This document shows, piece after piece, positions 3,288 through 32,813 of a stretch of DNA of 37,834 bases. Made by a program: the position numbers and the translations under genes. This DNA comes from a virus: positions 1 to 37,834 of IMG/VR virus record IMGVR_UViG_3300036876_000071. One strand, given 5' to 3'. Below the pieces are notes generated by a model. That model saw only the letters and a list, made by a program, of their open reading frames with translations. It did not search any database and was not told the origin of the DNA. Position 1 is the first letter of the stretch. Every line of letters begins with the position of its first letter.

Positions 3288-4859
3288 TCAATCCTCCGGC
3301 GGATAATTCCAGCCAGGGCCTTGGGCTCCAGGGTCGTAGCACTGCGCAGAGTAGGCCAGGAGGCTCTGATAATCCGTGTTGCTGGTCGGGCCAACGGGCA
3401 TGATGCCGGTATTGGGCTTGCGGATGTAAGGCTGCGCCTGACCAACCGCCAGGATAACCCGTTCGATTTCCGGATAAACCGTTTTGATCCCATAGCGAAA
3501 TTCACCCATCCAAAACCCGCGATTTTTCTTGTAATTGTTCACCGCGCACTGAACGCCGGTGTTCGGATCGATGTAAGTGAAGTACTCGGGCGACATCCAT
3601 TTCCACTGACCCATGAAACTGCGGGACAGACCGAACTTCATGGAGGAATTCACCGAGGCAATATCGCCGACAAAGACTTCGCGCGCATCCCGGTTGTAGC
3701 AGTGATACATGCGGATGGGGGCGTTCTTCCAATCAGGGGAGAACACCGGCTTGAGTCCGAAAGTCGCTTGGACATTGACGAACGGCCAGACCTGCTCGAT
3801 CCAAACCGCGTTCGCGCCGCCCACAACAGGCCCCCCATTGATGCCAGGGAGGCTTTGCCCGTCCAAGTCAGCCCGGAACCGGAACCGCATTTGCTGGTCA
3901 TCCCGTTTGAACAACCAATCGCCGCAACCCGCTGTCACTCCAAGGCTGTAGAACACGCCCGCTTTCGTGAAATCAGACGCTTTGTAGAGGCCAGTCAACG
4001 CGGGGTTGGCGGCTGTAAGCGCCCGGCCCGTGTCCGAGTCCATCGTGATGGTGAACTTGCCTTCCGGCAACCATTCCTCATCGTGATAACCATTGGCTGC
4101 CAGGTCGGCTTGCGAGTTCACCAGATATTCCATCGTCAACTGGCCCATGGAAGCGATCAGCCCAGCAGTCGTGGCGGCAGTCAAAGAGCCTGCCGTAACC
4201 AAGGCCGTCAATCCGCCGCTCTGATTCAGGTTAATCATCAGCGAATTGTTGGTGTAGGCCGGGGCGGTCCCGTTGGACACGGTAAACATGTTGTCGCTGA
4301 TGTCCAAGGATTGCGGGTTGCCATAGGCATCGGACAAGCCAGCCAGCCAGAGGCCGCTCTGCGTTGCCGCCGTGCCGCATCGGCGCAGGATGAGCAACCG
4401 GAGGAAGTCGGATGAAATGATTTCGGGCAGCTTTTTGTAGCCCGCGAACACCGCCTCCATTTTGGCGATCCCCTCGTCCACCGTGTTCAACTGGTCGAGG
4501 CAGAACGGGATGGAGTTGTACTCGCGCTGGAACAGGTCGTAGCGCAACTGGTCAACGCCGTGGGAGATGACTTGCGGCGTCATGTCGCAAGGCGTGCCGA
4601 CGCAGGGATCGGCCACGAATTGTTGCCACATGCCCGGATCATTGGGCCGTCCGACATAGACCTTTTCGTGCAGTTGCGTTGTCTCCTTGAACAACGGCCA
4701 TTTGCTGGTCTTGTACATGCCGGTGTAGATGTACTGGGCAGGTTTGCGATCCCTGGCTATTACTTTATCCCAAGGATACGGGCGCGAGCCGAGGAAGTTG
4801 TTGAAAGCGCCACACTGGGCGGTTGTCAAAGGCATAAAATCAAATTCGTTTTGCCCCAT
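3288..4859 (-). CDS. Probable major capsid protein
   Basis: A 523-residue protein without signal peptide or membrane segments, with mixed alpha/beta composition and many aromatic residues. I assign it as the capsid protein by size, by its place at the head of a structural operon, by the strong terminator right behind it, and because no other gene here suits that role. Features typical of large HK97-fold capsid proteins are a helical stretch at about 125-165 and long beta-rich regions afterwards, but I cannot point to a diagnostic motif. No Shine-Dalgarno precedes ATG 4859; a second in-frame ATG at 4835 also lacks one. It is transcribed away from the regulator gene at 5062. Alternatives are another large virion protein or a decoration protein. 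Confidence 0.55.
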   Translation of the reverse strand: MGQNEFDFMPLTTAQCGAFNNFLGSRPYPWDKVIARDRKPAQYIYTGMYKTSKWPLFKETTQLHEKVYVGRPNDPGMWQQFVADPCVGTPCDMTPQVISHGVDQLRYDLFQREYNSIPFCLDQLNTVDEGIAKMEAVFAGYKKLPEIISSDFLRLLILRRCGTAATQSGLWLAGLSDAYGNPQSLDISDNMFTVSNGTAPAYTNNSLMINLNQSGGLTALVTAGSLTAATTAGLIASMGQLTMEYLVNSQADLAANGYHDEEWLPEGKFTITMDSDTGRALTAANPALTGLYKASDFTKAGVFYSLGVTAGCGDWLFKRDDQQMRFRFRADLDGQSLPGINGGPVVGGANAVWIEQVWPFVNVQATFGLKPVFSPDWKNAPIRMYHCYNRDAREVFVGDIASVNSSMKFGLSRSFMGQWKWMSPEYFTYIDPNTGVQCAVNNYKKNRGFWMGEFRYGIKTVYPEIERVILAVGQAQPYIRKPNTGIMPVGPTSNTDYQSLLAYSAQCYDPGAQGPGWNYPPED

Positions 4860-5061
4860 CGGGGCGGTTTACGGTTTACGGGATTTGCGCGGGCGGGGCG
4901 CGTTACGCTGAACTTCACTGGCCGGGAACGGACGGCTTACGTTCTCTGCGGTTGTGGGCCGCTTGATGTCCTACGATGCAACCCATAAGCCCGCTTTCGA
5001 TTTCCCGCCAACGCAAAAAGTAGTGGACAAAACAAGTGCGTGATGCTAGTGGTTGTTCAAG
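4860..5061. promoter_or_regulatory. Divergent intergenic region between capsid operon and regulator/sugar operon
   Basis: About 200 bases without a convincing gene separate two operons that point away from each other, so promoters for both should lie here. A tandem heptamer GGTTTAC is repeated at 4866-4872 and 4873-4879, close to the capsid start. I see no convincing sigma-70 pair on either strand. The XRE-type protein encoded at the right edge is a plausible regulator of this region. Confidence 0.4.
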
Positions 5062-5253
5062 ATGCCTGAGAAAGAGAACTTCGGAAATAAGCTGCGCGCG
5101 TGGAGAAAACGCCGAGGCTGGCTTCAAAAACAAGCGGCGGACGCTCTTTCGGTGTCACTGGACACATACCGGGCTTGGGAATACAACAACGGCGCGCCGC
5201 ACAAAGCCCCGTCAAGGGCCGAGATTGAGCAGCGCATGGAGGCCGCCAAGTAA
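5062..5253 (+). CDS. Small XRE-family helix-turn-helix transcriptional regulator
   Basis: Sixty-three residues from ATG 5062 (a TTG at 5053 is an alternative). The whole protein is one helix-turn-helix domain: helix 1 LRAWRKRRGW, then LQKQAADALSV and SLDTYRAWEYN, matching the Cro/C1-type pattern in which residues of the third helix contact DNA. It has no dimerisation or sensor domain, so it resembles Cro-sized phage repressors or restriction-controller proteins. It is the first gene of the plus-strand operon, ending one base before the next start region, and may regulate its own divergent promoter region. DNA-binding function is fairly sure; the target is inferred. Confidence 0.8.
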   Translation: MPEKENFGNKLRAWRKRRGWLQKQAADALSVSLDTYRAWEYNNGAPHKAPSRAEIEQRMEAAK

Positions 5254-5254
5254 C

Positions 5255-6553
5255 ATGCAACTATATGTCCAACTTGGTCGCAACGGGGACATAATGAACA
5301 TCCTGCCGTTGCTCTATCAGGACTTCCTCAAAACAGGGGAGAAGTCGAGCTTAATGGTCGCCGGGGAGTTTTCACCGTTGCTGGAAGGCGTGTCCTATGT
5401 GACCCCCATCGTGCATCCCGGCCCGCACTACGAGATTGACATAGCCGCCGCCAAGGCCCGCGAGATCGCCCCCGCCGCCATCGTCACCCAAGTCAACGGG
5501 CCGCCCATTGCCGTCAAGCAACAGACCTACGAGAAGGCCGGGCAAGATCGCGCGCGAACCACGTCCTTTCAAAAGGAGTCATGGAAAGTGGCGGGGCGAT
5601 TGGGGCAATGGGATGAATGCCTGCCCTTAGTGTTCGACCAACGCGACAAGGCGCGAGAACAAAAGCTGATGGACAGTTGCGGCGTTATCCCGAAACGACG
5701 CGGAGAAAAGAAGCCCCTGATCCTCCTGGCCCTCAACAGCAATTCCAGCCCGTTTCCCTACATAGAATTGCTGCGGTTCGTGCTGGATAAGGCGTTTGGA
5801 GTCGAATACCGGCTTTTGGACTTGCCCAAGGCGGAGCGGCTTTACGATTTGCTGGCCCTATACGAGCGCGCCGCGTTGCTCGTGGCCGTGGACTCCGCGC
5901 CGTTGCACCTGGCCTGGGCGTGCCGTCCGCTGCCTGTTTTCGCCCTGGCGCAAGACCGGCCTACGCTGTGGCACGGGGCGTCGTGGAGGCCGAATCATCT
6001 GTGGTATTGCCGGTATCACGACTGGCCGAAAAGGGCGGTGGAGATGATGGATGCGATTGCATCCCTACCCGCGCCCTCAAACCCAAACGATTTCGTCACC
6101 GTCTGGAATGCCTACCAGGACAAGGGCCATTATCCCGCGTGGCCTTCTGTTCTGCCCGCTGCCGTTGGTTCATGCGGACGGGATACCTGGACAATGTTTC
6201 AGGAACCTAGGCGCGCGCCGTTTCTCCGCGATGTCATCAGAATGGCCATGCAACGGGCCGGGAGCGACGCATCGCAAATCCACCTGACACGCTCCCACGT
6301 TTCCGTCCAACCACCGGACTTGGCCCCGCCCTACTTCGCTTACCGGATGCTCAAGACCGCCGATGGCCTACAGTTCTCCCCCGTGGCCGACTTGTTCTGC
6401 GCCACGAAAGCATGGTGGCGCGAAGTCCTGCCGGAGATACCCGATTTCGTGCTGGGCAACGATCATTTGTGGAGCGAGGGATTGCGTGTGCTGTTCCAGA
6501 AGCGCGGGGCCAAGAACGCGACGGGGTGTTGCTCGTTTGCAAAGGAAAAATGA
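5255..6553 (+). CDS. GT9-like (heptosyltransferase-type) glycosyltransferase with a C-terminal extension
   Basis: Start ATG 5255 was chosen because it begins directly after the regulator's stop and has GGAGG about 12 bases upstream; a longer frame exists but overlaps the regulator. The 432-residue protein begins with an LGRNGDIMNILPLL motif, as in GT-B transferases of family 9. At 211-222 it has AVDSAPLHLAWA, the counterpart of the GT9 nucleotide-sugar motif (D-x-G/A-x-x-H-L-A; D213, H218). Residues about 270-432 form an added domain ending in DLFCATKAWW...LPEIPDFVLGND, not part of GT9. It should transfer a sugar from a nucleotide donor in the cytoplasm. It overlaps the next gene by ATGA and heads the carbohydrate cassette. 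Confidence 0.75.
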   Translation: MQLYVQLGRNGDIMNILPLLYQDFLKTGEKSSLMVAGEFSPLLEGVSYVTPIVHPGPHYEIDIAAAKAREIAPAAIVTQVNGPPIAVKQQTYEKAGQDRARTTSFQKESWKVAGRLGQWDECLPLVFDQRDKAREQKLMDSCGVIPKRRGEKKPLILLALNSNSSPFPYIELLRFVLDKAFGVEYRLLDLPKAERLYDLLALYERAALLVAVDSAPLHLAWACRPLPVFALAQDRPTLWHGASWRPNHLWYCRYHDWPKRAVEMMDAIASLPAPSNPNDFVTVWNAYQDKGHYPAWPSVLPAAVGSCGRDTWTMFQEPRRAPFLRDVIRMAMQRAGSDASQIHLTRSHVSVQPPDLAPPYFAYRMLKTADGLQFSPVADLFCATKAWWREVLPEIPDFVLGNDHLWSEGLRVLFQKRGAKNATGCCSFAKEK

Positions 6554-7527
6554 CCCCTGCCCCCTCACTCTTGCACAATAAAAAACTGGCCGATGAGTAT
6601 ATCGCCAAGGCCGGGAACCCGTCGCGTTACCCGCCTATCAGCGAGCAGGTGGAGCTTCTGCCGCTGGATACTTCACGCCTGCCCGCGCACGCCTATAACC
6701 CATCGTTGTATCAGTCCAACGGTCACACCTACATGACTTATCGGCATCACGTCAGGGGCGGATTCCAGACCCTTATCGGCATCGCCGAGCTTGACAAAGA
6801 TGGCCGCGTCATGAAAACGCGCGACCTGCCCATTGAAGGATTCAGCGTCGAGGACGCGCACCTTTTCTCCCTGCATGGGGAGCCTTGGGTATCCTGGGTG
6901 GAGGCACGATGGGAAGGCCGATCCGCCAATCCCAAATCCGTCATCAAATACGCGCAACTCGAATTGCCGCCAGCGCACGAAAACCCGGATTGGAAATGGA
7001 ACGCGATTCGGACGTATCAGCCCGCCGCCGGCGGGAACGACTGGGGTTCAGTGCAAAAGAACTGGGTCTTTTTCGAGCAGGACGAAAATCTGTTCTGCGT
7101 TTTTCTTTCGCACCCGCAACACTGCGTTTGGCAAATCCAAGGCGGGACAGTCATCGCCGATAACAAGACCGCGCCCGCGCAATGGCCCTACGGAGCCATC
7201 CGGGGCGGAAACGTAGTGCCTTACGGGAATAAACTCCTGCGCTTCTTTCATTCGAGCACCATTCACGGCATCGGGCAATACGAGAAGCGGTATTACATCG
7301 GCGCGCTCATAATGGAGGGGAAGCCCCCTTTCGCCGTGCAAGCCATCAGTAAAAGGCCCATCATCTACGGCAGCGAAGCGCCCGTGGTGGACTGCTACCA
7401 TTTCAAGCCCGGCGTGGCATTCCCTTGTGGAGCCGTGGTGGACAGGGGAAGTTTCATCGTGGCTTTGGGCGTGAACGATTGCCAATGCGCCTTGGCGAGA
7501 ATAAAACCGGAGCAACTTAATTTGTGA
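6550..7527 (+). CDS. GH130-like five-bladed beta-propeller protein (glycoside phosphorylase/hydrolase-like)
   Basis: ATG 6550 overlaps the preceding stop (ATGA), giving 325 residues, the usual size for GH130-type propellers. Motifs in order: YNPSLYQSNGHTYMTYRHH (about 50-68), IGIAELDKDG, EDAHLFSLHGEPWVSW (first acidic motif), QKNWVFFEQDENLFCVF, RGGNVVPYGNKLLRFFHSS, and YIGALIMEGKPPF...ISKRPI near the end. This order is what I know from GH130 mannoside phosphorylases and from related propellers encoded beside glycosyltransferases. It may bind, trim or phosphorolyse a mannose-like glycan, or assist the transferases. It ends in a GTGA overlap with the methyltransferase gene. Fold assignment reasonably sure; catalytic activity unproven. 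Confidence 0.65.
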   Translation: MTPAPSLLHNKKLADEYIAKAGNPSRYPPISEQVELLPLDTSRLPAHAYNPSLYQSNGHTYMTYRHHVRGGFQTLIGIAELDKDGRVMKTRDLPIEGFSVEDAHLFSLHGEPWVSWVEARWEGRSANPKSVIKYAQLELPPAHENPDWKWNAIRTYQPAAGGNDWGSVQKNWVFFEQDENLFCVFLSHPQHCVWQIQGGTVIADNKTAPAQWPYGAIRGGNVVPYGNKLLRFFHSSTIHGIGQYEKRYYIGALIMEGKPPFAVQAISKRPIIYGSEAPVVDCYHFKPGVAFPCGAVVDRGSFIVALGVNDCQCALARIKPEQLNL

Positions 7528-8162
7528 TCCAAACCATCGATCTCATAAACGCTTGGCTGGATAATGACCATGTGCCAAAGATTGAAGGGTGGTGTACCCC
7601 GTTAAAAGGTTGCCATCTTGCCAACCTTACTTTCAAACTGAAACCGAAAGTGGCCGTGGAAATTGGCGTGTTCGCCGGAAAGTCTCTTTTGCCGATTGCG
7701 TTGGCTTTGAAAGAAATCGGGTTTGGAAAAGTAATAGCCATTGATCCCTGGTCTTCAAAGGAGTCCCAGAAGGGATATTCACAAGAGGACTACGAATGGT
7801 GGGGAAAAATTGACCATGAGGATATTTTCCGAAAGTTTAACCAGTTAATTGAAAGATTTGAGTTGCGCGGCCATGTGGAAGTGTGGCGCACAACCAGCGA
7901 TCTTGCCACACCGCCCGAATTCGTTGATTTGTTGCACATTGACGGCCAGCATACCGAACAGGCCATTCGTGACGTGGCCCGTTACGCCTCAAAAGTAAGA
8001 CGCGGAGGAATGGTTGTTATGGACGATATACACAACGGGGAATTTGGGGTCAAGGTAAGCGAGGCCGTGGATAATCTTTTGGGAATGGGCTTTAAAACTT
8101 TTTTTGAACTCCACGTTGGTTCAGACGACTTTGCAATTTATGAAAAATCTTTGCTTTTATGA
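7524..8162 (+). CDS. SAM-dependent methyltransferase (Methyltransf_24 type)
   Basis: The GTG start at 7524 overlaps the preceding TGA. The 212-residue protein shows SAM motif I (VEIGVFAGKS, 45-54), an acidic strand end (VIAIDPW) and VDLLHIDGQHT followed by RRGGMVVMDDI, the signature of the Rossmann methyltransferases common in sugar and O-antigen clusters. Such enzymes often O-methylate sugars, which caps chains. The DNA is markedly less GC-rich than upstream genes (about 45% in 7561-7620 versus 68% in 5461-5520, counted by eye), pointing to a separate origin. It overlaps the aminotransferase gene by ATGA. Family sure; the sugar substrate is inferred from neighbours. Confidence 0.8.
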   Translation: MIQTIDLINAWLDNDHVPKIEGWCTPLKGCHLANLTFKLKPKVAVEIGVFAGKSLLPIALALKEIGFGKVIAIDPWSSKESQKGYSQEDYEWWGKIDHEDIFRKFNQLIERFELRGHVEVWRTTSDLATPPEFVDLLHIDGQHTEQAIRDVARYASKVRRGGMVVMDDIHNGEFGVKVSEAVDNLLGMGFKTFFELHVGSDDFAIYEKSLLL

Positions 8163-8791
8163 GCGCACAAGGAGTCCACAAAATCACTGAGGAATTTGAA
8201 AGAGAGTTGTGTCGTTACACTGGCTCTCCGTTTGCTGTTGCGGTGGACAACGAATCAAACGCCCTGTCTCTTTGCCTTTGGAGAGACAAAGGCTCATACG
8301 ACACGATTATTATTCCTGAAAGGACGTACATGAGCGTGCCGTGTGAAATTTTATTGATGGGAGGCCGTGTTCAGTTTTCTCCAGTTCGAGGCGAGACGCT
8401 AACGGGAGCTTACCGCCTTGAGCCGACTCGAATTTGGGATTCAGCGTTGCGATTCACAGCCGACATGTACATGCCTGGATCGCTTATGTGCCTGTCATTT
8501 ACTGGCCCGTACAAACACCTCAAGCTCGGCAAGGGCGGCGCTATCCTATGTGATAAGGATGAAGATTATAAATGGTTCAAGAAAGCCCGATTCTCAGGCC
8601 GAAACGAGTGTAGTTACCTTGTGGACGAGTTCACGATGTTGGGTAAAAACTATTACATGATGCCGGAAATCGCGGCCAGAGGATTGCTCTTGATGTCCCA
8701 ATTTTACAATCTCGATGGCAGCAAAAAGAAGATGCCTGACCTTACGCTGCCATACCCAAATCTCAACCTTCACCCCGCATACAAACAATAA
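8159..8791 (+). CDS. Short DegT/DnrJ/EryC1-like PLP sugar aminotransferase
   Basis: At 210 residues this is little more than half the usual DegT length of about 370. The core is recognisable: FERELCRYTGSPFAVAVDNESNAL matches the N-terminal cofactor-binding part, D94 in RIWDSAL matches the Asp that contacts the pyridine nitrogen, and K119 in SFTGPYKHLKLGKGG matches the Schiff-base lysine followed by the Gly-rich turn. The linker between these is shortened and the C-terminal small domain is nearly absent, yet the frame is intact and coupled at both ends (ATGA before, TAATG after). It may make a 3- or 4-amino sugar for the acyltransferase encoded next. A degenerate, non-catalytic relic is the alternative. 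Confidence 0.65.
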   Translation: MSAQGVHKITEEFERELCRYTGSPFAVAVDNESNALSLCLWRDKGSYDTIIIPERTYMSVPCEILLMGGRVQFSPVRGETLTGAYRLEPTRIWDSALRFTADMYMPGSLMCLSFTGPYKHLKLGKGGAILCDKDEDYKWFKKARFSGRNECSYLVDEFTMLGKNYYMMPEIAARGLLLMSQFYNLDGSKKKMPDLTLPYPNLNLHPAYKQ

Positions 8792-9432
8792 TGAATATTC
8801 TTGTAATAGGCAGCGGAGGATACGCCGGAGTGGTCATAAGCGCCATCCATGCGATGCGTAATAACTGGAAAATTATCGGATTGATTGATGAGACGCTGGC
8901 GGAGGGTCAGAAGCGTTACGGATACGAAATTCGACACGAGTCACGGTGGTTTAGCCTTGACAACTTCAACTGTTTTATAGCCATCGGAGATGCTTCCGTG
9001 CGTGAACGCATCGCGGCAAAACAATACCCATTCGTAAACGTCATCCATCCCACGGTCAGAACACGCACCCCTTTTTGTAAAGGCACGTATTTTGGGGAGA
9101 ATTGCGTTGTAGGGAACAATTCTGTAGTGGGCAATTTCTCGATCATCAACACCGGAGTCATACTCGAACACGATAGCAGTGTGGGGGATTTCAGTCATCT
9201 TTGTCCCGGCGTCGTTACTGGCGGCCGAGTACATATAGGAGACCGGACTACCATTGGTTTGAATGCGAGCATCCGAGACGGCGTTCAGATTGGGAACAAC
9301 TGCGTAATAGGCATGGGAAGCGTAGTCTTAAAAGATGTGCCGAATAATACCACTGGATGGGGAAACCCATTCACCGCCCCTGTGTGCGCGCGCGGCTGCG
9401 CAAACTGGTGTGACGACTCCACAGCCCTGTGA
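8791..9432 (+). CDS. PglD/NeuD-like sugar O/N-acyltransferase (left-handed beta-helix)
   Basis: Start overlaps the previous stop as TAATG. The 213-residue protein has an N-terminal Rossmann-like part (ILVIGSGGYAG, 3-13) and a C-terminal hexapeptide-repeat helix from about 100 (GENCVVGNNSVVGNFSII, GDRTTIGLNASI, GNNCVIGMGSVV). H127 in LEHDSSVGDFSH fits the catalytic His of PglD-type enzymes, and H136 lies nine residues later, as the second His does in that family. It should transfer an acetyl group from acetyl-CoA to an amino or hydroxyl sugar. Next to a DegT-like aminotransferase this recalls the PglE-PglD pair of bacillosamine synthesis. The gene shares the lower GC of its two upstream neighbours. 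Confidence 0.85.
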   Translation: MNILVIGSGGYAGVVISAIHAMRNNWKIIGLIDETLAEGQKRYGYEIRHESRWFSLDNFNCFIAIGDASVRERIAAKQYPFVNVIHPTVRTRTPFCKGTYFGENCVVGNNSVVGNFSIINTGVILEHDSSVGDFSHLCPGVVTGGRVHIGDRTTIGLNASIRDGVQIGNNCVIGMGSVVLKDVPNNTTGWGNPFTAPVCARGCANWCDDSTAL

Positions 9433-10355: not shown

Positions 10356-10648
10356 ACGCCAAGGAAGCCCTGTTGCGCGACAAGGAACTGGCCAAATGGC
10401 TGGTGTCCGTCACGCATGATCCGCGATGGGAGAACGTCGAAATCATAGTCCGGGCCTACCTGGCGGACACCGCGCCGTCTTGGGAAGAACTGAAAGGCGG
10501 AAACGCCGCCCTGTCACTTCTGACGAGCATCACCGACAATGATCCTACTTCCCCTTCCTTACCAACCCCAGGATTAGACAAACGAAACCTGACCGAAATC
10601 ATGGAGGATGTCCGAAAAACCACCTCCGAACCACCTAAACCGTTATGA
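10352..10648 (+). CDS. Small hypothetical protein, head-assembly operon
   Basis: Ninety-eight residues; ATG 10352 overlaps the preceding stop and is preceded by a strong purine-rich ribosome site (GGGGAGGGGAGA). The N-terminal 50 residues are helical with a Trp-containing WLVSVTHDPRWENV segment, and the C-terminal 40 residues are Pro/Ser/Thr-rich and probably disordered. I do not recognise the family. The ATGA overlap with the scaffold-like gene and the strong ribosome site suggest abundant co-translation with head proteins. Confidence 0.7.
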   Translation: MNAKEALLRDKELAKWLVSVTHDPRWENVEIIVRAYLADTAPSWEELKGGNAALSLLTSITDNDPTSPSLPTPGLDKRNLTEIMEDVRKTTSEPPKPL

Positions 10649-11919
10649 TTACCCACCCATTGATTCTTCTCGCGCCTGACTCGCCTGCGACTAGTGGCGG
10701 CGCGCCGCCAGCCCCGGCACCGGCACCAGCCCCGGCCCCAGCCTCCGCACCATCACCAGCAGCCCCGGCGCCATCGGAAACTCCCACCGCCGCCGATCAC
10801 GCCGAAGTAGAAAACGCTTTCCAGCGGTTCGACCCGACGTTTAAGCCGCCCGAAGCCAAACCATCGGAAGCGGCCGCTAAACCATCGGAAGCGGCCGCTA
10901 AACCATCGGAAGCGGCCGCCGCTCTGGAAGCGCCGCCCAAACCGGCTTCCGTCGCGCCGCCGCCCGCCGCCGGAGAACCCAAGACGCCTAAAGAGTTGCG
11001 CGATGCGTATCAGAAGCTCCAAACCGACCTTAACGCCCGTATTGCGTCGCACGCTGCACTTGAGGCGAAGATCAAGCAATACGAGGCCATCGGGAAGGAG
11101 GCAGGCTCCCTCAAGTCCCTGTTGACCTCCAAGGAGAAGCGCATCAACGAGCTTGAGGCCGAAAAGCGCGCGCTCAAGTGGGAGGCATCCCCGGAATTCA
11201 AAAAACAGTATGAGCAGCCCTTTGATGAAGCTGCGGAAAACGCGGCTACTTACGTGTCAAAACTTCGCAAGACGGACGGCACCCAGGCTCGTTGGGAGGA
11301 TTTCATCCCATTGTACCGTCTGGCCAAAGACACCACAATGGGCGCGGCTAAGGCCAAGGCACAAGAGTTGTTTGGCGATGCCGAGGCCGATGAGGTTATG
11401 TTCTCCGTCCGGGAGTTGGTTCGCCTTGACCGTGTTAAAACCAAGGCATACGAGGAGGAATTCGAGGCGGCAAAATCCAATTGGAAAGAGAAGGAAGAAC
11501 ACGAACACGCTCAACGGCTCACCCAGGAACAGGCTGGCAAGGAAATTTTCGGCAAGGTCAATGCCGACCTGCAAGCCTCGGTGGAGCTATACCGCGACCC
11601 GCCAGAGGACAAGGAAGCCTCGACCGAACGCGCGCGGGGACTGGCCCTTGCCGACGCCAAAGCCCGGACACCGCAAGAACTGTGCTGGAAACTGGCCCAT
11701 TGCCGCCAAATGGTTGGAGCCTTCTTCCCGTTGCAACTGCAAAACTCCCGGCTCAAATCCAAAGTGGCGGACTTGGAAAAGCAAGTTGCCGGGTTGAAAC
11801 CCAGAGGTCCCGGCGGCGGAGATTCCCGGCCAGGCGGTGAAGCTGCTCCGAAGCCGGCGGAAGTCACCCAGGAAAGTTGGGCGGCGGAAGCTCGCAAAGC
11901 GATGGAAGGCATTGAATAA
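10645..11919 (+). CDS. Probable capsid scaffolding protein
   Basis: The 424-residue protein has a Pro/Ala-rich N-terminus (about 15-50, alternating P-A), three exact seven-residue repeats KPSEAAA (72-92), a long charged coiled-coil region (about 115-340) and a disordered Gly/Pro C-terminus before a short final helix (ESWAAEARKAMEGIE). Abundant charge, coiled coil and low aromatic content are what phage scaffolds look like, and it sits in the head-gene neighbourhood. The repeats are 21-bp tandem units at 10858-10920, each carrying GCGGCCGC or a one-base variant. It overlaps both neighbours (ATGA before, TAATG after). A helical internal protein is the alternative. Confidence 0.6.
   Translation: MITHPLILLAPDSPATSGGAPPAPAPAPAPAPASAPSPAAPAPSETPTAADHAEVENAFQRFDPTFKPPEAKPSEAAAKPSEAAAKPSEAAAALEAPPKPASVAPPPAAGEPKTPKELRDAYQKLQTDLNARIASHAALEAKIKQYEAIGKEAGSLKSLLTSKEKRINELEAEKRALKWEASPEFKKQYEQPFDEAAENAATYVSKLRKTDGTQARWEDFIPLYRLAKDTTMGAAKAKAQELFGDAEADEVMFSVRELVRLDRVKTKAYEEEFEAAKSNWKEKEEHEHAQRLTQEQAGKEIFGKVNADLQASVELYRDPPEDKEASTERARGLALADAKARTPQELCWKLAHCRQMVGAFFPLQLQNSRLKSKVADLEKQVAGLKPRGPGGGDSRPGGEAAPKPAEVTQESWAAEARKAMEGIE
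10858..10920 (+). repeat. Three tandem 21-bp units inside the scaffold-like gene
   Basis: Units at 10858-10878, 10879-10899 and 10900-10920 differ only at the final base. They encode KPSEAAA three times. Near-perfect DNA identity indicates recent slippage; copy number probably varies between related phages. Confidence 0.9.
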
Positions 11920-12450: not shown

Positions 12451-12726
12451 AAAGATTCAACGCTGGCAAGGGCTCGCTGAGGCAGGGCAAGCAAAAAAAG
12501 TGCCAGGTGGCCCGGTGAGTGGGGGTCAAAAGTGGGCATCGTGAAATGGTCGGGGGGTGACTTCCGGCAGTTTGCGGGGTTTGCGGGGTTTGTTTTGCTG
12601 TTTCGGTAAAAGTCTCCTGTAAACGTACGCGAGAGGGGTTTTAGGGAAAGTCCGTTTGAAACCCCGCAAACCCAGCGTCTGCCACCGGGTGTGACGGTAA
12701 TCCTGCCCCAGTTAAAGATTCAACGC
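12449..12726. repeat. 15-bp direct repeat bracketing the convergent intergenic region
   Basis: TTAAAGATTCAACGC occurs at 12449-12463, just after the terminator, and again at 12712-12726, where it forms the end of the ATP-grasp gene (its TAA stop is the first three bases read in reverse). The copies are 263 bases apart in the same direction. The outer copy looks like a remnant of the same gene end, as a recombination or duplication scar would leave. Confidence 0.7.
12571..12670. repeat. G-rich tandem nonamers with an inverted partner
   Basis: TTTGCGGGG is tandemly repeated at 12571-12588 and followed by TTT. Its complement AAACCCCGCAAA stands at 12659-12670. The 12-bp arms could fold into a long hairpin serving as a terminator for the minus-strand operon or as a protein site. 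The rest of 12464-12711 holds no gene that I can support. Confidence 0.5.
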
Positions 12727-14043
12727 CGTCTCAGGCGGGGGGATTGGCTCTTTCCCAAACTCGATGTCCGCCTTGACTGATTCTTCCAGTTCATGCAGCA
12801 AGTCCACCAAGGCGTCCGTGTCGGCGTCCAGCCCGTCCGGCAGCAAGTCCGTGTGCTCGTGCAGGTTATCAATCACGCCCTTGATGCTGTCTCCGGTAGC
12901 CCCAAGCCAGCCCACTTCATGGCCCTGCCCTTCATCGGCGGGAAACGCAATCTTGCCGTCAATCTGAAAACAGTTTCCAAACCCCGTCCACTCCTTCAAC
13001 TCTGGCGGGATGCGGATCACGGGCCACTCGTCACGCTCGCTTTTGGTGGTAATGATGGCTTCCGCCGCGTGCGTGGCGGACGGTTTAAGCTCGCACAATT
13101 CGCCGTTGGCTCCGGCCCAAACGTGTTCCGGCCAGTTCTCCCAAATCATCATCTGCGACAGCGTGGACGGCAGACCGATGCGGCAGCACGGGTCAATGAA
13201 ATAGCCTTTGTCACCCACAATCCTTACTTCCATGCTCCACTGGTTGCGGTAACGAAACTCCTTCAAGACCGGCCCGAAAGCGTCCAGCACCTCCTGAATT
13301 TTCTCCGGCATTTCATCGCGCGGGGTGACGACGCCCAAGTACGAATGATCCTTACACTCGTCACCGTGGAGCATCAGCTTGGGCCATTGGCCATCCACGC
13401 AGGACGTGTCCCCGCCGATTTCCAGCGGAGTGTCGATGGCGTCGAACACCAGGAACGCGATGAGTTCTTTGGACGGCCCCATCTTCACCGCCAGCACGTC
13501 CAGCTTCCCCTCGTCCAAGTCCCACGACCGCCAATGGAACGTCTCCATTGATCCCCGGTAGCGGCTGATCTTGATATATTTGTCCTCTGCGTCTTTCAGG
13601 TGGAGGCGGAGCGCGTTCAGCCCTTTGACGGGCACGAACGGGGCCACCTCAAGCCCCAGGCCTTTGAGCACCTTGCAGAAGTGTTGCCGGAAGATTTCCA
13701 GTGTGTCCCCGTCACGCGATCCCCACACCGGAAAACCTTGGGACTCAAGTTCAAGCTGCAAATCGCCCAGGCCGATGTCCGGGAACACGAAGCAATCAAT
13801 TTCCTTTTTGATCTTCCAGAAGGAATCAATTTTCTCGATGCCCTCCATGTCGTGGCCGATGATACAGCGATTGATGGTGGGGAAACCCTCGGAGTTGGGA
13901 CAGTAGTATAGGACTCGCGCGAAACCGTTTCGGGCAAGGCGTTGCGCCACCGGGATACCAAGGCCGTGGTCAATCACGCAGGCGGTTGATTGGGAAACAT
14001 CCTTCATATCTACGTGTAACACCTTATACCCGTCGCACCCCAT
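12712..14043 (-). CDS. ATP-grasp enzyme, distantly PurD (GAR synthetase)-like, in the packaging operon
   Basis: The 443-residue protein starts with a Rossmann-like pre-grasp part (HGLGIPVAQRLARNGFARVLYYC, 26-48), similar to the start of PurD/carboxylase-type ATP-grasp enzymes. GSRDGDTLEIFRQHFCKVL (108-126) matches the lid before the grasp. K158 in KYIKISRYRGSMET suits the nucleotide-binding Lys and Gly loop. E272/R274 in SMEVRIVG and D284 with R288 in YFIDPCCRIG suit the metal- and phosphate-binding end. ATP-grasp enzymes join a carboxylate to an amine or thiol through an acyl-phosphate. Residues 310-443 are a family-specific tail. Its position just after the portal suggests modification of a virion or host protein rather than purine synthesis; that is inference. 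Confidence 0.65.
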   Translation of the reverse strand: MGCDGYKVLHVDMKDVSQSTACVIDHGLGIPVAQRLARNGFARVLYYCPNSEGFPTINRCIIGHDMEGIEKIDSFWKIKKEIDCFVFPDIGLGDLQLELESQGFPVWGSRDGDTLEIFRQHFCKVLKGLGLEVAPFVPVKGLNALRLHLKDAEDKYIKISRYRGSMETFHWRSWDLDEGKLDVLAVKMGPSKELIAFLVFDAIDTPLEIGGDTSCVDGQWPKLMLHGDECKDHSYLGVVTPRDEMPEKIQEVLDAFGPVLKEFRYRNQWSMEVRIVGDKGYFIDPCCRIGLPSTLSQMMIWENWPEHVWAGANGELCELKPSATHAAEAIITTKSERDEWPVIRIPPELKEWTGFGNCFQIDGKIAFPADEGQGHEVGWLGATGDSIKGVIDNLHEHTDLLPDGLDADTDALVDLLHELEESVKADIEFGKEPIPPPETALNL

Positions 14044-14061
14044 TCGGCGTATCTTGCTGCC

Positions 14062-14298
14062 ATGATATTCGCAGAATTAGCAACCAGTGGTGGTCTTGTC
14101 CATGATTTATTCGCCGTTCTCATTATCAGCATTTGCTGCGCAATTATATGGTGGCTAGGGCGCTGGTTTATCGAGAAAATGGCTTTACCGGGGCTCGTGC
14201 TCACGGTCTGGACCGGCTTGTTCCTATTGGTAGGAGCCATAGTTCTGATAAATTTTTTGCTTGGTCTCACAGGACACGGCTTCCTGCATTACTGGTGA
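14062..14298 (+). CDS. Small two-helix membrane protein, holin candidate
   Basis: Seventy-eight residues with two clear transmembrane helices: about 15-35 (FAVLIISICCAIIWWLG) and about 45-70 (LVLTVWTGLFLLVGAIVLINFLLGL). They are separated by a short basic loop (GRWFIEKM), and a short tail ends in HYW. Size and two-helix layout fit class II-type holins and similar phage membrane proteins; no endolysin is found beside it. It is the only plus-strand gene between minus-strand neighbours: 18 bases from the ATP-grasp start and 72 bases from the portal stop. Transcripts from the portal therefore run antisense through it. No obvious Shine-Dalgarno precedes the ATG. Confidence 0.6.
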   Translation: MIFAELATSGGLVHDLFAVLIISICCAIIWWLGRWFIEKMALPGLVLTVWTGLFLLVGAIVLINFLLGLTGHGFLHYW

Positions 14299-14370
14299 CG
14301 CCTGCAATTTCGTCTTCTTCCTCTGGATCATTGCAATCCTCTCCGTCCTCAGTTGTTTCGCCTTCGGGCA

Positions 14371-16650
14371 TTATTCCTCCGTGCTTGCGGATTCCGGTTC
14401 CTCGAACATGCTCCGCCGTTTATTGGCCGCGTCGGTCAACGCCTTAAACCCGTCCTGAGCAATCCCGGCCATTGTCTCCGTCGCGCGGTGGCGTTGCTCC
14501 TGCTGAAATTCCTGCTCCCGATGCCGCAAAAGTTGCTGCGTCTCGGCCTCCTTGCTCCTGGACTTTTGCGCGGACTCCATCTGATGCTCGCGCAGTTTCA
14601 AGGCCATCTCCCCGCCAGCCCCGTTGCGCTGTGCCGCCGCCGCCTGCTTTTGCCGCATCTGCTCCCCGCGTTGGATGATGCCCCGCGCCAGATTGTCCTG
14701 TTGCATCTTGATTGTCTCGAACTGCTTGGCTTTGGGCTTTTGGGTCTGGTCTTGCGAGAACTGTTTCAGAGCCATACCGATGTAATTGCTCACGTTGGCC
14801 AGGCCGGTCGCCTCATCCTGCGTGGCCATGTTGTCGCGTTTCGTGATTTGCGCGATCTTCGCTGCGTAGAGCGGAAGCAGGGCTTCTAGTTGGTCAATCA
14901 CGTTGGCCTGCGACAGCGGCACGGGCACGCCTTCCATGAGGCAGGCAAAATAACCCACCATCTCGCGTTTGGCGTCCGTTTCCATGAGCGGGCCTTTGAG
15001 GGGCGCCCACCGCGCGGCCTTGCGCCAATCGTTGGTGACGATCAACAGGTATTCGTGCAAGACTTCCTGTTGCGCTTGCGGCGGCAGCATCGGGCGCACA
15101 GCCAAAAGCTCCTTGGCCATCGTCATGGCAATGGTGGGATTGCCCATGCCCAGGGGCGTCACTGGCTCCACAATCCACCGCTTGATTTTCAAGAAGTCAT
15201 CCGGGATACCCCCCTCTTTGCAGACCCTTTGAAATTCCTGCACGTCCTCATCGAATGAATTCGGGATGCAAAACCTGCGGCAAATCTCCCGGTCGGCCCC
15301 GGCTTCGTATTTGAACGCGGTCAGGAGGATGCTGCTCATCATGGCATTGACCTGCTCCATCTTTACCCGCGTCTCGAAAGCGGTCTGCTCCTTTTCCGTG
15401 CCCGTATCCGCCTGCTGAGTGTATTGGCTGGAAGCGTTGGCTTGCAGTTGCGTCAGTTGCGCGAACAGCGTCTCGACCAAGGCCGACTGAATCTGATGAC
15501 GCTCCGTTTGCGGCACGATGCTCACGCCCTTTTTCAAGACGCCCATGTTGCCAAATTGCTGGACGGATACCCTCGCCTTTTCCGGGTTGTCTTCCGTTTT
15601 CAACCAGATATTGAAGTTGTCATGGACATGCTGCAAGAGACGGTTGCGCGTCAGGTTCAAGTAAAACGTCGGCTCAAGCAGGATGTAACCCAGGCCCCGC
15701 ACCGCCGCGTATTTGAACGGCGGATCAACCGAAAGGTCGCCGAACTGGCAATGGATCAATTGCCGCCAAGAACCGCCTTCCGGCTCTCCGGGGTCATCTT
15801 TCGTGATGTCGTCAGGCCAGAGAAAGATGTCCTGATCCGCCCCCCGCACCGTATCCTGTTCCGGCACGACTCGCTGATACCATTGATCTCCCTGCTGAAA
15901 ATAGAAGTGCCACAGCGGAATGGTCGGAAGCGCGTCACTCCCGTAAGACCCTCCGTTTTGCTTGACCAACTCCATCAGTTTCTCCGGTTCCGTCTCGAAA
16001 TTGTAGTTGTTGGTCGCGTCGGTAAAATTGACTTCCTTGTAGTTTTTCAGGATGTTCGCCACGGCCTCCTTGTTCCACCGATTGTTTGGTTCCTCGGAAA
16101 AGGCCAGTTTCAGCAATTCCTCGACGGTGTAAGATTCGCGCGTGGCGAACCAAGTCAGGTTGGCAAAGTCCACGGTCGTATCGGTGGGTATCCGCACGTC
16201 GGCCATGGCCTTGAACTTGGGCAACCACTTCTCTCTATCGCGCCATACCATCGGCCCGACGCCATGCGTGACGACGCTTGACCAGCGGGATCGGTGAAGC
16301 TCAAAATATTCATTGCTCTCCCGCAGGGGGCGGTTGATTTCCTCCGTGATGAGGCTTTCCCATTCCGACTGATGTTCCGGCGGCGCATTTTTTAGTTTGA
16401 CGGTGAAAAAATACTGGTTGGATAAGAAGGCCTTTATAAGCTGGCCACGGGCCTTCACTAGAATTTCCAGCAGTTCCCCCCACTCGACATTGATTTTCAG
16501 GCCGAGCTTTTTGGCGGTTTCCTCGTCGAGGGGAGGGCAACCATTGGCGGAACGGAGCACCTTGCATCGGTTGCGGCCGCGCACGGCCTCGACCTCGTCG
16601 CCCGCCATGATGGTTTCAAGGACTTTTCCCGGCGTGGAAAAATTGCTCAT
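14371..16650 (-). CDS. Portal protein
   Basis: A 759-residue protein, the size of large podovirus-type portals, with the usual alpha-rich layout: an N-terminal region with WGELLEILVKARGQLIKAFLSNQYFF, a long middle crown/stem region with YILLEPTFYLNLTRNRLLQHVHD, and a Gln/Glu-rich coiled C-terminus (about 640-759) that suits a barrel. ATG 16650 was chosen over an upstream in-frame ATG at 16683 because it has GGAG six bases before it and overlaps the upstream stop as ATGA. The portal forms the dodecameric DNA channel at one head vertex and docks the terminase. Its gene follows TerL and two small genes, a common order. Confidence 0.8.
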   Translation of the reverse strand: MSNFSTPGKVLETIMAGDEVEAVRGRNRCKVLRSANGCPPLDEETAKKLGLKINVEWGELLEILVKARGQLIKAFLSNQYFFTVKLKNAPPEHQSEWESLITEEINRPLRESNEYFELHRSRWSSVVTHGVGPMVWRDREKWLPKFKAMADVRIPTDTTVDFANLTWFATRESYTVEELLKLAFSEEPNNRWNKEAVANILKNYKEVNFTDATNNYNFETEPEKLMELVKQNGGSYGSDALPTIPLWHFYFQQGDQWYQRVVPEQDTVRGADQDIFLWPDDITKDDPGEPEGGSWRQLIHCQFGDLSVDPPFKYAAVRGLGYILLEPTFYLNLTRNRLLQHVHDNFNIWLKTEDNPEKARVSVQQFGNMGVLKKGVSIVPQTERHQIQSALVETLFAQLTQLQANASSQYTQQADTGTEKEQTAFETRVKMEQVNAMMSSILLTAFKYEAGADREICRRFCIPNSFDEDVQEFQRVCKEGGIPDDFLKIKRWIVEPVTPLGMGNPTIAMTMAKELLAVRPMLPPQAQQEVLHEYLLIVTNDWRKAARWAPLKGPLMETDAKREMVGYFACLMEGVPVPLSQANVIDQLEALLPLYAAKIAQITKRDNMATQDEATGLANVSNYIGMALKQFSQDQTQKPKAKQFETIKMQQDNLARGIIQRGEQMRQKQAAAAQRNGAGGEMALKLREHQMESAQKSRSKEAETQQLLRHREQEFQQEQRHRATETMAGIAQDGFKALTDAANKRRSMFEEPESASTEE

Positions 16651-17054
16651 GTCAACTCCATTTCTATTTTTTGCCAGCACCACGTCGGGAATTGCTCCCT
16701 TTCCCTGGGTGACGTGTGGGCCTTGATGAACTCAATCGGCGTCCAGACTTTCAACGACAGGCAACATCCGCAGATGGAGCACATGTGGATTTGTTCATCA
16801 TGCGGCGTGGCCAGCTTCATGCGGTTTTTTACTTCAAGCTGTTCCCGGATGGCCGCCGCAATGGGGTCTTTGAAAAGCTTTTCCCACCACTTGGGGGATC
16901 TGTTATGGGGACAAGGATTACCGTTATCCCCAATGAGGCAAGCCACCGCACGGCCATTGGCGTACTCCTGCGGCACCGGCACGCCCTCGCCGAGCCAGTC
17001 CCGCAAGACTTGCGCTCCATTTGCATCCCGCCTTATTTCATCAAGCAGCCTCAT
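16647..17054 (-). CDS. Cys-rich zinc-ribbon phage protein between terminase and portal genes
   Basis: 135 residues. The N-terminal helix EIRRDANGAQVLRDWLGEG is followed by CLIGDNGNPCPHN and then HMCSICGCCLSLKVWTP, a Cys cluster (CxxCxCC) that probably binds zinc together with the His or the earlier Cys. This CxxCxC..-KVW-P pattern is one I associate with small conserved tailed-phage proteins found near packaging genes; function not known. Its stop overlaps the portal start by ATGA, and its own start is three bases after the preceding stop, so it is co-expressed with packaging genes. Confidence 0.75.
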   Translation of the reverse strand: MRLLDEIRRDANGAQVLRDWLGEGVPVPQEYANGRAVACLIGDNGNPCPHNRSPKWWEKLFKDPIAAAIREQLEVKNRMKLATPHDEQIHMCSICGCCLSLKVWTPIEFIKAHTSPREREQFPTWCWQKIEMELT

Positions 17055-17057
17055 ACG

Positions 17058-17381
17058 TCAAGAAACTTTTGCACCGCAGCCCTTGCAAGGACCGTTCAGT
17101 CCTGGGGTATCACCCATGATCGGCAGGTCATTCGACTGGCCGGGGTTGCACTCAATGCAGTAAAGCGGATCGTTCCCGCGGCTACTGCATTGGTATATGC
17201 TGATGTCTTCCATGGCTTCCCGGTAGGTCGCGCGTGGCAGGTTGTTCCCCTTGCGGAAGCCCCAAACCCGCTTGGCCATGTTTTCAATGACCGGCTCAGG
17301 GCCGAAACGATGGCCGTTTTGCTGGAAAAAATACCCGCCGCGCGGCGTCACGTCAAAAGATCGAAGTCGGTAGCAGGCCAT
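17058..17381 (-). CDS. Small Cys-rich protein next to the terminase gene
   Basis: A 107-residue protein starting in a TAATG overlap with the terminase stop. It has an aromatic-rich N-terminus (RGGYFFQQNGHRFGPEP) and six Cys: YQCSSRG, YCIEC, and CKGCG at the very end. CIEC and CKGC look like two zinc knuckle halves. It may be an accessory packaging or DNA-binding factor (small-terminase-like function cannot be excluded, as no small terminase is otherwise seen). I do not recognise the family. Confidence 0.65.
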   Translation of the reverse strand: MACYRLRSFDVTPRGGYFFQQNGHRFGPEPVIENMAKRVWGFRKGNNLPRATYREAMEDISIYQCSSRGNDPLYCIECNPGQSNDLPIMGDTPGLNGPCKGCGAKVS

Positions 17382-19267
17382 TATTTCACTCTTTCAAGAA
17401 GTCCGGCCTTGATGGCGTCCTCTTCAAGTTTTCGTTCGGTTTCAAACCAATCTTCTTCCTGTTTCTGTACATCTACCACGTCTTGGCCCAAACGTCCAAT
17501 GGTGAAACCGAGTTGCCGCGCCTTCTCGACGCCGATGGCGAGGCAGTCAAACAGGTCGGGTGACTTGCCCAAGCGTCGTTTCAAATCCTCCTTTTTCTTC
17601 GGGTCGGTCTTTGGTTCGACTTCGATCTTATCCCCGGACACCAGGTTGTAAATGCGCGCGCAGCCCTCGGCCATAACGTCCTCTAACAGCCCCCGCATCT
17701 GGCCAGCCTCGGCGGTGTATCGCGCCGAAAACCACATTTCAGAGACGAATTTCGAGTAATGCTCCCGGCAGGTCTTGAGCCGTTGCTGGCCCGTGGTTTT
17801 GTCCTCTGTGTAAAGGTCTGCCCGCACAGCCCGCTCGGTGGGTTGCGCGCCGGAATCAATCGCCGTTGGCACGCGCCGGCCAAACCGCCGGGCGAACGCC
17901 GCTCCGATCGTGCCCTTGCCGGTCGCGTCGTAACCTACATTCTCCGGCGGGATGACGTAGGTATGGCTCCCGTCTGGCATTTTCGTTTCGCCCAACTTCA
18001 CGGCGAGGGTGTTGGCGATTTGATCTTCCGGGGAAACCAGTTCGCCCGTCTTTGCATTGGTCAACGACAGGTCAATGCGAAACACGTCGTAAGGAGCAAT
18101 GTCCAATATCTCTTTTCCACTGGTGTCGTAACCAAACTTCATTTCCATGCCGATACAGCGATCTTCCCCTCCGTAGGTGGGGTCGAGGGCGTACAGGCGC
18201 GTCTGCTTGTCATCGGCCCACACAACGCCCTCCAGCGCGTGATTGTCGCGGCATATCTGGCGGGTGATGACGCGCGAAAGCGCGAAACCAACCTTCATTA
18301 CTCCCAGGATGAGACGGTAATAGTCGAAAGAGTTTGGCCCGGAATCGTGCGCGATGCGCGCGGCAAACTTCGGCCCGATGAGGCGCGGGTAAGGCTCCGG
18401 TTTGCCCGGTTTGACTTTGAAATTGTCCGAGTCCGGCCCGTACAGGTTGACGCATTTCCCGCCCATGAACTTGGTCGGCCAAACTTCGGTCGTGGTTGGT
18501 TCCGGGTGGTTCGCCCACCCCTCCAACGGCTCCGCCGTCCGCGAAAGCTGATCTTCCGGGTCGTGCTTCGGATTCCCTGACCCAATGATCTTTACGTTGC
18601 TGTTGGAGAACAGATGCGGCCAGGAACCGGAAAACCCTTCACTCATGAATTGAAGCTCGTCGCACACGTAAATAATGTTGTCCTGTTTCACGCCGGCCAA
18701 CGTGCCCAAGCCCACAAATCGGTTGCCCACGATGCAAGGACGGCAAATGACGCCCTTGCGGAATATCCGAATCTCGTCCTCATCCATGTTGTCGGTCGTG
18801 ATGGCGCGCTTGTACTGAACGATATGGCCCGGTATCCACGGATGAAGATTGCGCGCGTTTTGCCAGAGCATAGTCAATTCCGCCCACACCCCAATGTCCA
18901 GCTTGTCCATGGTGGTTGTGGAGAGGATGACCAGGGTGTTGTCCGGCTTGGCGAGATAGGACATGAGGGCGTATTCGACGGCGTGACTTGTTTTCTGAGT
19001 CGAGGCCGCACCCATGAGAATCGTCACGTCGTTCTCGATAAAGTTGTGGTACATCAAGTCCGTCCAGTGGTGACGGTAACGATCAGGCCACGCCAGACGG
19101 CGCGCGTTCATGTAATGCTCAAACAGGCCCAGCCCGCATGTTTCACCACGGCTGTCAATCCAACTTCCGCCCTTGGCGATACAGGCCAATTCGATTTGAA
19201 AGTCCGAGACTTCCACCGGCCAACCCGCGCCGTATTTGGCCTTGAGATTGAGTTTTTGCTTGCGCAT
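17381..19267 (-). CDS. terL: Terminase large subunit (ATPase/nuclease)
   Basis: 628 residues with both terminase domains. ATPase: a variant Walker A GAASTQKT (86-93, K92), Walker B IIYVCDEL (D203, E204) and a coupling motif GSGNP (229-233). Nuclease: RNase-H-type acidic residues D362 (LYALDPTYGGED), D447 (VGYDATGKG) and D571/D574 (SPDLFDCLAIG). The protein pumps DNA into the head through the portal and cuts the concatemer. The Walker A lacks the usual second Gly (normally GxxGxGKS/T), a recognised kind of variation in phage terminases. It starts 43 bases from the divergent gene at 19311. No clear Shine-Dalgarno precedes ATG 19267. Downstream are two Cys-rich genes and the portal in one overlapping series. 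Confidence 0.92.
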   Translation of the reverse strand: MRKQKLNLKAKYGAGWPVEVSDFQIELACIAKGGSWIDSRGETCGLGLFEHYMNARRLAWPDRYRHHWTDLMYHNFIENDVTILMGAASTQKTSHAVEYALMSYLAKPDNTLVILSTTTMDKLDIGVWAELTMLWQNARNLHPWIPGHIVQYKRAITTDNMDEDEIRIFRKGVICRPCIVGNRFVGLGTLAGVKQDNIIYVCDELQFMSEGFSGSWPHLFSNSNVKIIGSGNPKHDPEDQLSRTAEPLEGWANHPEPTTTEVWPTKFMGGKCVNLYGPDSDNFKVKPGKPEPYPRLIGPKFAARIAHDSGPNSFDYYRLILGVMKVGFALSRVITRQICRDNHALEGVVWADDKQTRLYALDPTYGGEDRCIGMEMKFGYDTSGKEILDIAPYDVFRIDLSLTNAKTGELVSPEDQIANTLAVKLGETKMPDGSHTYVIPPENVGYDATGKGTIGAAFARRFGRRVPTAIDSGAQPTERAVRADLYTEDKTTGQQRLKTCREHYSKFVSEMWFSARYTAEAGQMRGLLEDVMAEGCARIYNLVSGDKIEVEPKTDPKKKEDLKRRLGKSPDLFDCLAIGVEKARQLGFTIGRLGQDVVDVQKQEEDWFETERKLEEDAIKAGLLERVK

Positions 19268-32553: not shown

Positions 32554-32813
32554 AAATCATCATCCTCTATTATTTGCTCTCGCGCGCAACGCGAACAAAC
32601 ACATTCATTTTCGCTGGCCATGAATAGTTCATGGCATAGGCGACACTCGGTTTCTTCCACGGTTTCTTCCTCGTCGTCAAATTCGCCGCGCTCCGGCCAA
32701 TTCTTGTAGTCGCACAACCCGCCAGCCAAGAGTCCCGCGCAAGGCCGGTCACTCACTGGAAGGCATTGACATTCTAGTGCCATTTCTTCCACAAAGCGTT
32801 CATAAGTCATCAT
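32550..32813 (-). CDS. Cys-rich zinc-ribbon-like small protein
   Basis: 87 residues if started at 32813 (MMTYERFVEEM); the frame is open to 32846, but that start overlaps the primase by 47 bases, unusual here, and no start has a Shine-Dalgarno. Cys pairs CQC...C...C lie in the first third, followed by an acidic run (EFDDEEETVEETE) and CRLCHELFMASENECVCSRC, a clear zinc knuckle pair. It ends in EDDDL, as does the primase. It is probably a small DNA- or protein-binding accessory of replication. Confidence 0.65.
   Translation of the reverse strand: MMTYERFVEEMALECQCLPVSDRPCAGLLAGGLCDYKNWPERGEFDDEEETVEETECRLCHELFMASENECVCSRCAREQIIEDDDL

Follow-up and report, generated by a model that had tools for sequence, protein, structure and literature searches.

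The stretch of DNA analysed here (the window, a linear IMG/VR viral contig of 37,834 bases) encodes a protein that profile and model comparisons strongly support as a full-length PurD-fold ATP-grasp enzyme of PurD ancestry, its gene directly following a presumed portal gene and a terminase large subunit (TerL) gene on the same strand. The conservation pattern of its family leads us to conclude that these are predicted to be active ATP-grasp ligases with substrates other than those of PurD, and the enzyme class, an acyl-phosphate-forming amide ligase, is very probable. The explanation that fits best is a phage-specific PurD-derived amide ligase that serves the head or packaging stage, which we hold with about as much confidence as doubt. 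The genes of the region are the following:

3288 to 4859, minus strand: major-capsid candidate of 523 aa, belonging to the cluster found after the scaffold gene in relatives.
10645 to 11919, plus strand: scaffold-like protein of 424 aa, whose gene and the ATP-grasp gene converge in the window.
12712 to 14007, minus strand: PurD-fold ATP-grasp ligase gene, 431 aa from Met 14007, assigned by profile, AlphaFold2 model, Foldseek and VIA.
14008 to 14370: gap between portal and ATP-grasp genes, with no copy of the HExxE partner found in relatives and with short unconserved ORFs at 14010-14270 (minus strand) and 14062-14298 (plus strand).
14371 to 16683, minus strand: presumed portal of 770 aa, named from size, order and synteny.
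17381 to 19267, minus strand: TerL of 628 aa, with a Walker A-like GAASTQKT, VCDE and weak similarity to the TerL of a Pseudomonas phage.

An open frame of 443 codons from ATG runs through 12712-14043 on the minus strand and the plus-strand frame there is riddled with stops. The initial annotation had taken this whole frame as the gene; the frame stands and the start shifts. The gene appears best placed at 12712-14007, the start at 14007 being preferred over 14043 because the N-terminus of the relatives corresponds to the Met at 14007, 12 residues downstream of the ORF-finder start, and because an AAGGTG lies around 12 nt upstream of this Met. The TerL-portal-ATP-grasp junction recurs with 100% identity in another contig, L002, whose sequence stops 14 residues into the ATP-grasp gene, so the arrangement is no assembly accident of a single contig.

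Searches with the single window protein gave no match in Pfam, PHROG, NCBIfam, PDB sequences, 50,697 phage records or 72,556 plasmids, and a first viral scan with peptides from the whole protein found no relatives. The family was opened by peptides from the conserved core, then by a TerL alignment and then by a 21-member family alignment (A3). This yielded more than 130 relatives in uncultivated viral contigs (137 viral stretches from the A3 search alone) and others on six bacterial or archaeal MAG contigs, while further family members again had no match among the deposited phage records. Its carriers are many uncultivated soil-type phages. The MAG relatives suggest Acidobacteriota as hosts, though this may reflect nothing more than how the bins were assigned. 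Exactly one copy is found in each of 30 large relative contigs, and dN/dS values of 0.05-0.15 in close pairs indicate strong purifying selection on the gene.

In order to assign the fold we compared profiles and a predicted structure, and the ATP-grasp call made from motifs was borne out by each. The A3 profile retrieved PurD (2yw2) among PDB sequences with an E of 2.8e-5 and hhalign agreed on the call. The AlphaFold2 model of the 431-aa protein has a pLDDT of 91.1 and a pTM of 0.90, and the Foldseek search that had been proposed as a check returned Aquifex PurD as its top PDB match (E 1.5e-18). VIA gave a Z of about 29 over about 376 residues for PurD and about 24 for PurK and PurT, and the domain order in the model and in VIA is that of PurD, with pre-ATP-grasp, ATP-grasp A/B and C domains. 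Against predicted viral structures the model scored no better than E 1.5e-11, and NCBIfam gave weak PurK and PurD matches in a few family members. PurD, PurK and PurT are the nearest folds; RimK and TTL are absent among the PDB structure matches listed, an absence that excludes neither.

A. aeolicus PurD binds ATP through K103, K143, E185, E192 and K214, glycine through D212, R287 and E292, and Mg partly through E100 (PMC8880213). Conservation was counted over 75 distinct full-length family members, in which the equivalents of E100, K103, K143 and R287 are kept as E104, R107, K146 and R276, each 99-100% conserved. K146, E104, E260, D272 and R276 are invariant in all 75 and are predicted to be the ATP lysine, the Mg acids and the carboxylate arginine. 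They include the lysine first numbered K158, which is K146 in the 431-aa protein, and the E-R...D-R motif that had been read as terminal to the enzyme, which is E260/R262/D272/R276 and likewise invariant (75/75). R151, E196, D200, E217, K219, P280 and N291 are also invariant and E155 and T156 nearly so. The sites lie as follows:

13687 to 13698, minus strand: E104..R107 (LE-x-x-R), counterpart of PurD Glu100 (Mg) and Lys103 (ATP), from profile alignment and conservation (PMC8880213).
13570 to 13572, minus strand: K146, predicted catalytic ATP-binding lysine and counterpart of PurD Lys143, from its conservation (75/75) and hhalign.
13540 to 13557, minus strand: RGSMET (151-156), the family loop that replaces the GLAAGKGV loop of PurD, from alignments; the motif carries an intein-like insert in L019.
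13180 to 13230, minus strand: E260-x-R262...D272...R276, predicted metal and carboxylate site with R276 equivalent to PurD Arg287, from alignments and conservation.

In L019 (7572-10043) the ATP-grasp ORF is split in frame by this insert, which starts with CFDEQTEILTDTGW, ends with WSGN before C, and enters at KISRWRGD^CETTHW in the active-site loop, a location characteristic of active sites under constraint.

The substrate loops of PurD are altered throughout the family. The PRA-binding GGREHA loop is missing, with D-x-GLF/GxxxA instead, and GLAAGKGV has become YRGDxET. The glycine-binding glutamate of GDPE (PurD Glu292) is lost, its place being taken by Ser281 in the window protein, whereas Arg287 is kept as R276 and the Pro of GDPE is matched by the invariant P280. 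The invariant E217-x-K219 may by eye match the DHK of PurD (Asp212/Lys214), but hhalign and MAFFT align it to the following DGDxGPN. Activity on non-PurD substrates is predicted since the catalytic residues are kept, the gene is under purifying selection and the PurD substrate loops are lost.

These data bear on two other readings. A virion structural or regulatory protein that keeps the ATP-grasp fold without catalysis would suit the head-module position, and enzymes are occasionally recruited as structural components; set against essentially invariant catalytic residues over 75 divergent members and the lack of the gene in several relatives with the same portal, we regard it as highly unlikely. 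An auxiliary metabolic gene, that is a diverged PurD enhancing purine synthesis, would agree with PurD being the nearest fold and profile and with the weak TIGR00877 matches (cut-off 288 bits) of 4 of 21 members, the best at E 3.6e-6, where true PurD proteins reach E <=1e-100 and the window protein has none. Against it stand the loss of the GGREHA loop and of the GDPE glutamate; orthology to PurD with its substrate residues retained, which the initial annotation had named as the finding that would make the protein an ordinary nucleotide-synthesis helper, is not what the alignments give. The gene is also locked to the head module, and true PurD is already present in the MAG genomes that carry family members (full-length in three of four, in two pieces in the fourth). 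Its lack of a partner in purine synthesis, first remarked on for the window, extends to the relatives: none of the 30 large contigs has an AIRS_C (PurM/PurL) or formyltransferase (PurN-type) gene, with positive controls, which argues against a purine-synthesis helper. Taken together this reading is very improbable. A glutamine amidotransferase (GATase_6, PF13522), sought as an ammonia source, was present in one of the 30 contigs, where about 80 kb separate it from the ATP-grasp gene.

The gene had been described as part of a packaging operon, between portal and scaffold. TerL, portal and ATP-grasp do share a strand, but the scaffold-like gene lies on the opposite strand in the window and on the same strand in most relatives. 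The pairing with the portal, for which a genomic-context search had been suggested, proved widespread: the presumed portal is upstream on the same strand in 78 of 112 hits (a redundant set), mostly within 0.7 kb. The arrangement that recurs across 87 distinct loci runs TerL, portal, ATP-grasp, small gene, scaffold and capsid candidate, and the window fits it except for the scaffold strand. In this group the portal, TerL and scaffold were named from size, order, the Walker motifs of TerL and very weak database matches; the group's portal and TerL have no PDB or PHROG match, and hhalign of its portal against verified portals gave an E of 0.012, which is only suggestive. More distant phages with unrelated head genes carry the ligase by a PHROG-verified TerL (L147, L152), TerS (L149) or portal (L150, L159) and next to or near a PHROG-verified major head protein (L148, L153, L159) or tail tubular protein (L153), and in L167 a TerL follows the ligase within 1 kb.

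The association is neither fixed nor obligatory. On the ATP-grasp gene tree the contexts are interspersed and the context class switches 22 times, which implies that through much exchange the association with head genes was either retained or established anew. Seven relative contigs with the same presumed portal have no ATP-grasp gene, which argues that it is accessory to head assembly and not required; in L004, L028, L031 and L059, where it is absent, portal and scaffold lie close together.

Other features of these genomes were recorded alongside. Near the scaffold gene the window carries a glycan-type cassette (5036-9432, plus strand) with a GT9-like glycosyltransferase, a GH130-like protein, a Methyltransf_24 protein, a short DegT aminotransferase-like protein (210 aa) and a PglD-like acetyltransferase, similar genes occurring in the same region of L004. 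A Toprim and AAA_25 protein at 32800-34734 (minus strand) is probably a primase-helicase. The TerL ORFs of L084, L098 and L082 are about 300 aa longer than those of the rest of the group and may hold inteins.

The space between portal and ligase is often occupied. A conserved protein of about 125 aa (alignment A4; motifs HExxE and EPGD..APY...H) is found there in 35 of 83 distinct loci, L125 among them, its end and the ligase start forming an NTGA stop/start overlap in most loci inspected, and it occurs without the ligase only where the contig ends (L033, L042). Its candidate metal-binding residues are H47, E51, H96 and E103. Its model has a pLDDT of 96 and no convincing known fold, with Foldseek E values of 0.39 or worse. 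The best VIA Z values (PprI 5.3, CapP 5.2, a SprT-type protease 4.5) are below the level of trust and the weak top rows are mostly zinc metallopeptidases, so that a zincin-like protein is a lead only. A protein of the AdoMet-decarboxylase family directly precedes the ligase in nine distant loci; 7 of 8 aligned members match PF02675 (best 7.5e-9). It keeps the pyruvoyl-forming Ser and the Cys and has Asp at the His68 position (compared with PMC10407285), which makes its own activity uncertain. L147, L150 and L152 show the run of HExxE protein, AdoMet-decarboxylase-family protein and ATP-grasp beside terminase or portal genes that are unrelated to those of the window's group.

Neither neighbour is present in the window, where the ligase stands alone. 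The gap ORFs at 14010-14270 and 14062-14298 and a 34-aa acidic ORF were considered as counterparts of the partner and rejected, having no homologues outside the same population. The second of these, opposite in strand to portal and ligase, encodes a 78-aa two-helix membrane protein-like product and occurs only in the window and in L002; HNH homing-endonuclease-like genes sit in the portal-ligase gap of L101, L104 and L120. Given the plus-strand ORF and the absent partner gene, co-transcription with the portal is putative in the window.

A ligase with a small-molecule product, for example an amine conjugate, is the main rival to a head-stage enzyme. An amide or dipeptide such as a polyamine or amino-acid conjugate could act as a DNA counter-ion, in host metabolism or as a signal, the head position then reflecting late timing. 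Most PurD-fold enzymes act on small molecules, and the decarboxylase-like protein that adjoins the ligase in the nine distant loci belongs to a Pfam family shared with phage AdoMetDC/SpeD homologues, which decarboxylate ornithine or arginine and make putrescine or agmatine (PMC10407285, PMC9992855). This neighbour differs from those enzymes in its Asp for His68 and its coupling to an ATP-grasp gene in a head module, and it is absent from the window's group and from most relatives. We consider this reading somewhat unlikely. The term ATP-grasp occurs in neither of the two texts.

For the head-stage ligase that we prefer, the chemistry of the family suggests that a carboxylate would be activated with ATP to an acyl-phosphate, R276 holding the carboxylate and K146, R107 and E104 holding MgATP, and that transfer to an amine would give an amide. 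The ligase probably joins some acid and amine other than those of PurD, late in infection. Going by gene position it would act during head assembly or packaging, a role we consider rather likely, and because it would act at that stage the amide would most likely be on a head or virion component, or be a small amide or peptide required for this step. In many relatives the ligase may work with the coupled partner of about 125 aa, possibly metallopeptidase-like, and in a few the AdoMet-decarboxylase-family protein could supply the amine. Several observations weigh against the head-stage reading: the gene order could reflect late expression timing alone, the head-gene names in the window's group are positional, seven same-portal relatives do without the gene, and the window has no partner gene and a small plus-strand ORF in the portal-ligase gap. 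Virion modification is plausible; a virion protein as the substrate is possible, our judgement leaning against it. PurD-type enzymes usually act on small molecules and not on proteins. A fuller scheme, which we think unlikely, would have the ligase couple an acid or amine onto a head protein late in capsid maturation or packaging, with the small translationally coupled HExxE partner acting as a minimal metallopeptidase-like protein that readies or trims the target position.

An amide-linked group could instead be added to phage bases before packaging. Amide-type base modifications occur in other phages and the gene adjoins the terminase, but we recognised no base-modification genes among the window genes scanned and to our knowledge no ATP-grasp enzyme serves DNA base hypermodification, which leaves hypermodification quite improbable.

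Among known systems PurD (TIGR00877) is the closest, sharing the fold over the whole length, the domain order, the equivalents of E100, K103 (as Arg), K143 and R287, and a C-terminal region that can be aligned across the PurD B/C domain. The family differs from it in the three substituted motifs (GGREHA to D-x-GLF, GLAAGKGV to YRGDxET, the GDPE glutamate replaced), in an identity of about 15%, and in its place in a head module without purine genes. PylC, PurK, PurT and biotin carboxylase share the superfamily and the Rossmann-like pre-domain, and the E260/D272 pair resembles their canonical two-acid metal site, but their structural scores are lower (Z 21-24 vs 29) and no link of context exists. 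LUZ24-like phages carry a 291-aa ATP-grasp protein in an early module beside an amidoligase and a class II/glutamine amidotransferase (PMC3890496). That protein is likewise a phage-encoded ATP-grasp without an assigned substrate (PMC3890496), whereas the one described here has 431 aa, is of PurD type and lies in a head module with no adjacent glutamine amidotransferase. Fold and chemistry belong to a known superfamily; the change of the substrate site, the coupling to a head module and the coupled partner are apparently new, no description of these or of a portal-adjacent ATP-grasp having been found in the open-licence literature searched.

Auxiliary-gene pipelines would be likely to label such a gene purD and count it as purine metabolism, an annotation trap. 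The enzyme is conserved in scores of uncultivated phage genomes, was not found in a search of 50,697 deposited phage records, and is placed where only head-building genes are expected. If the virion is indeed modified, or a small amide supplied for DNA packaging, this would be a chemical step in tailed-phage assembly that is absent from the laboratory model phages.
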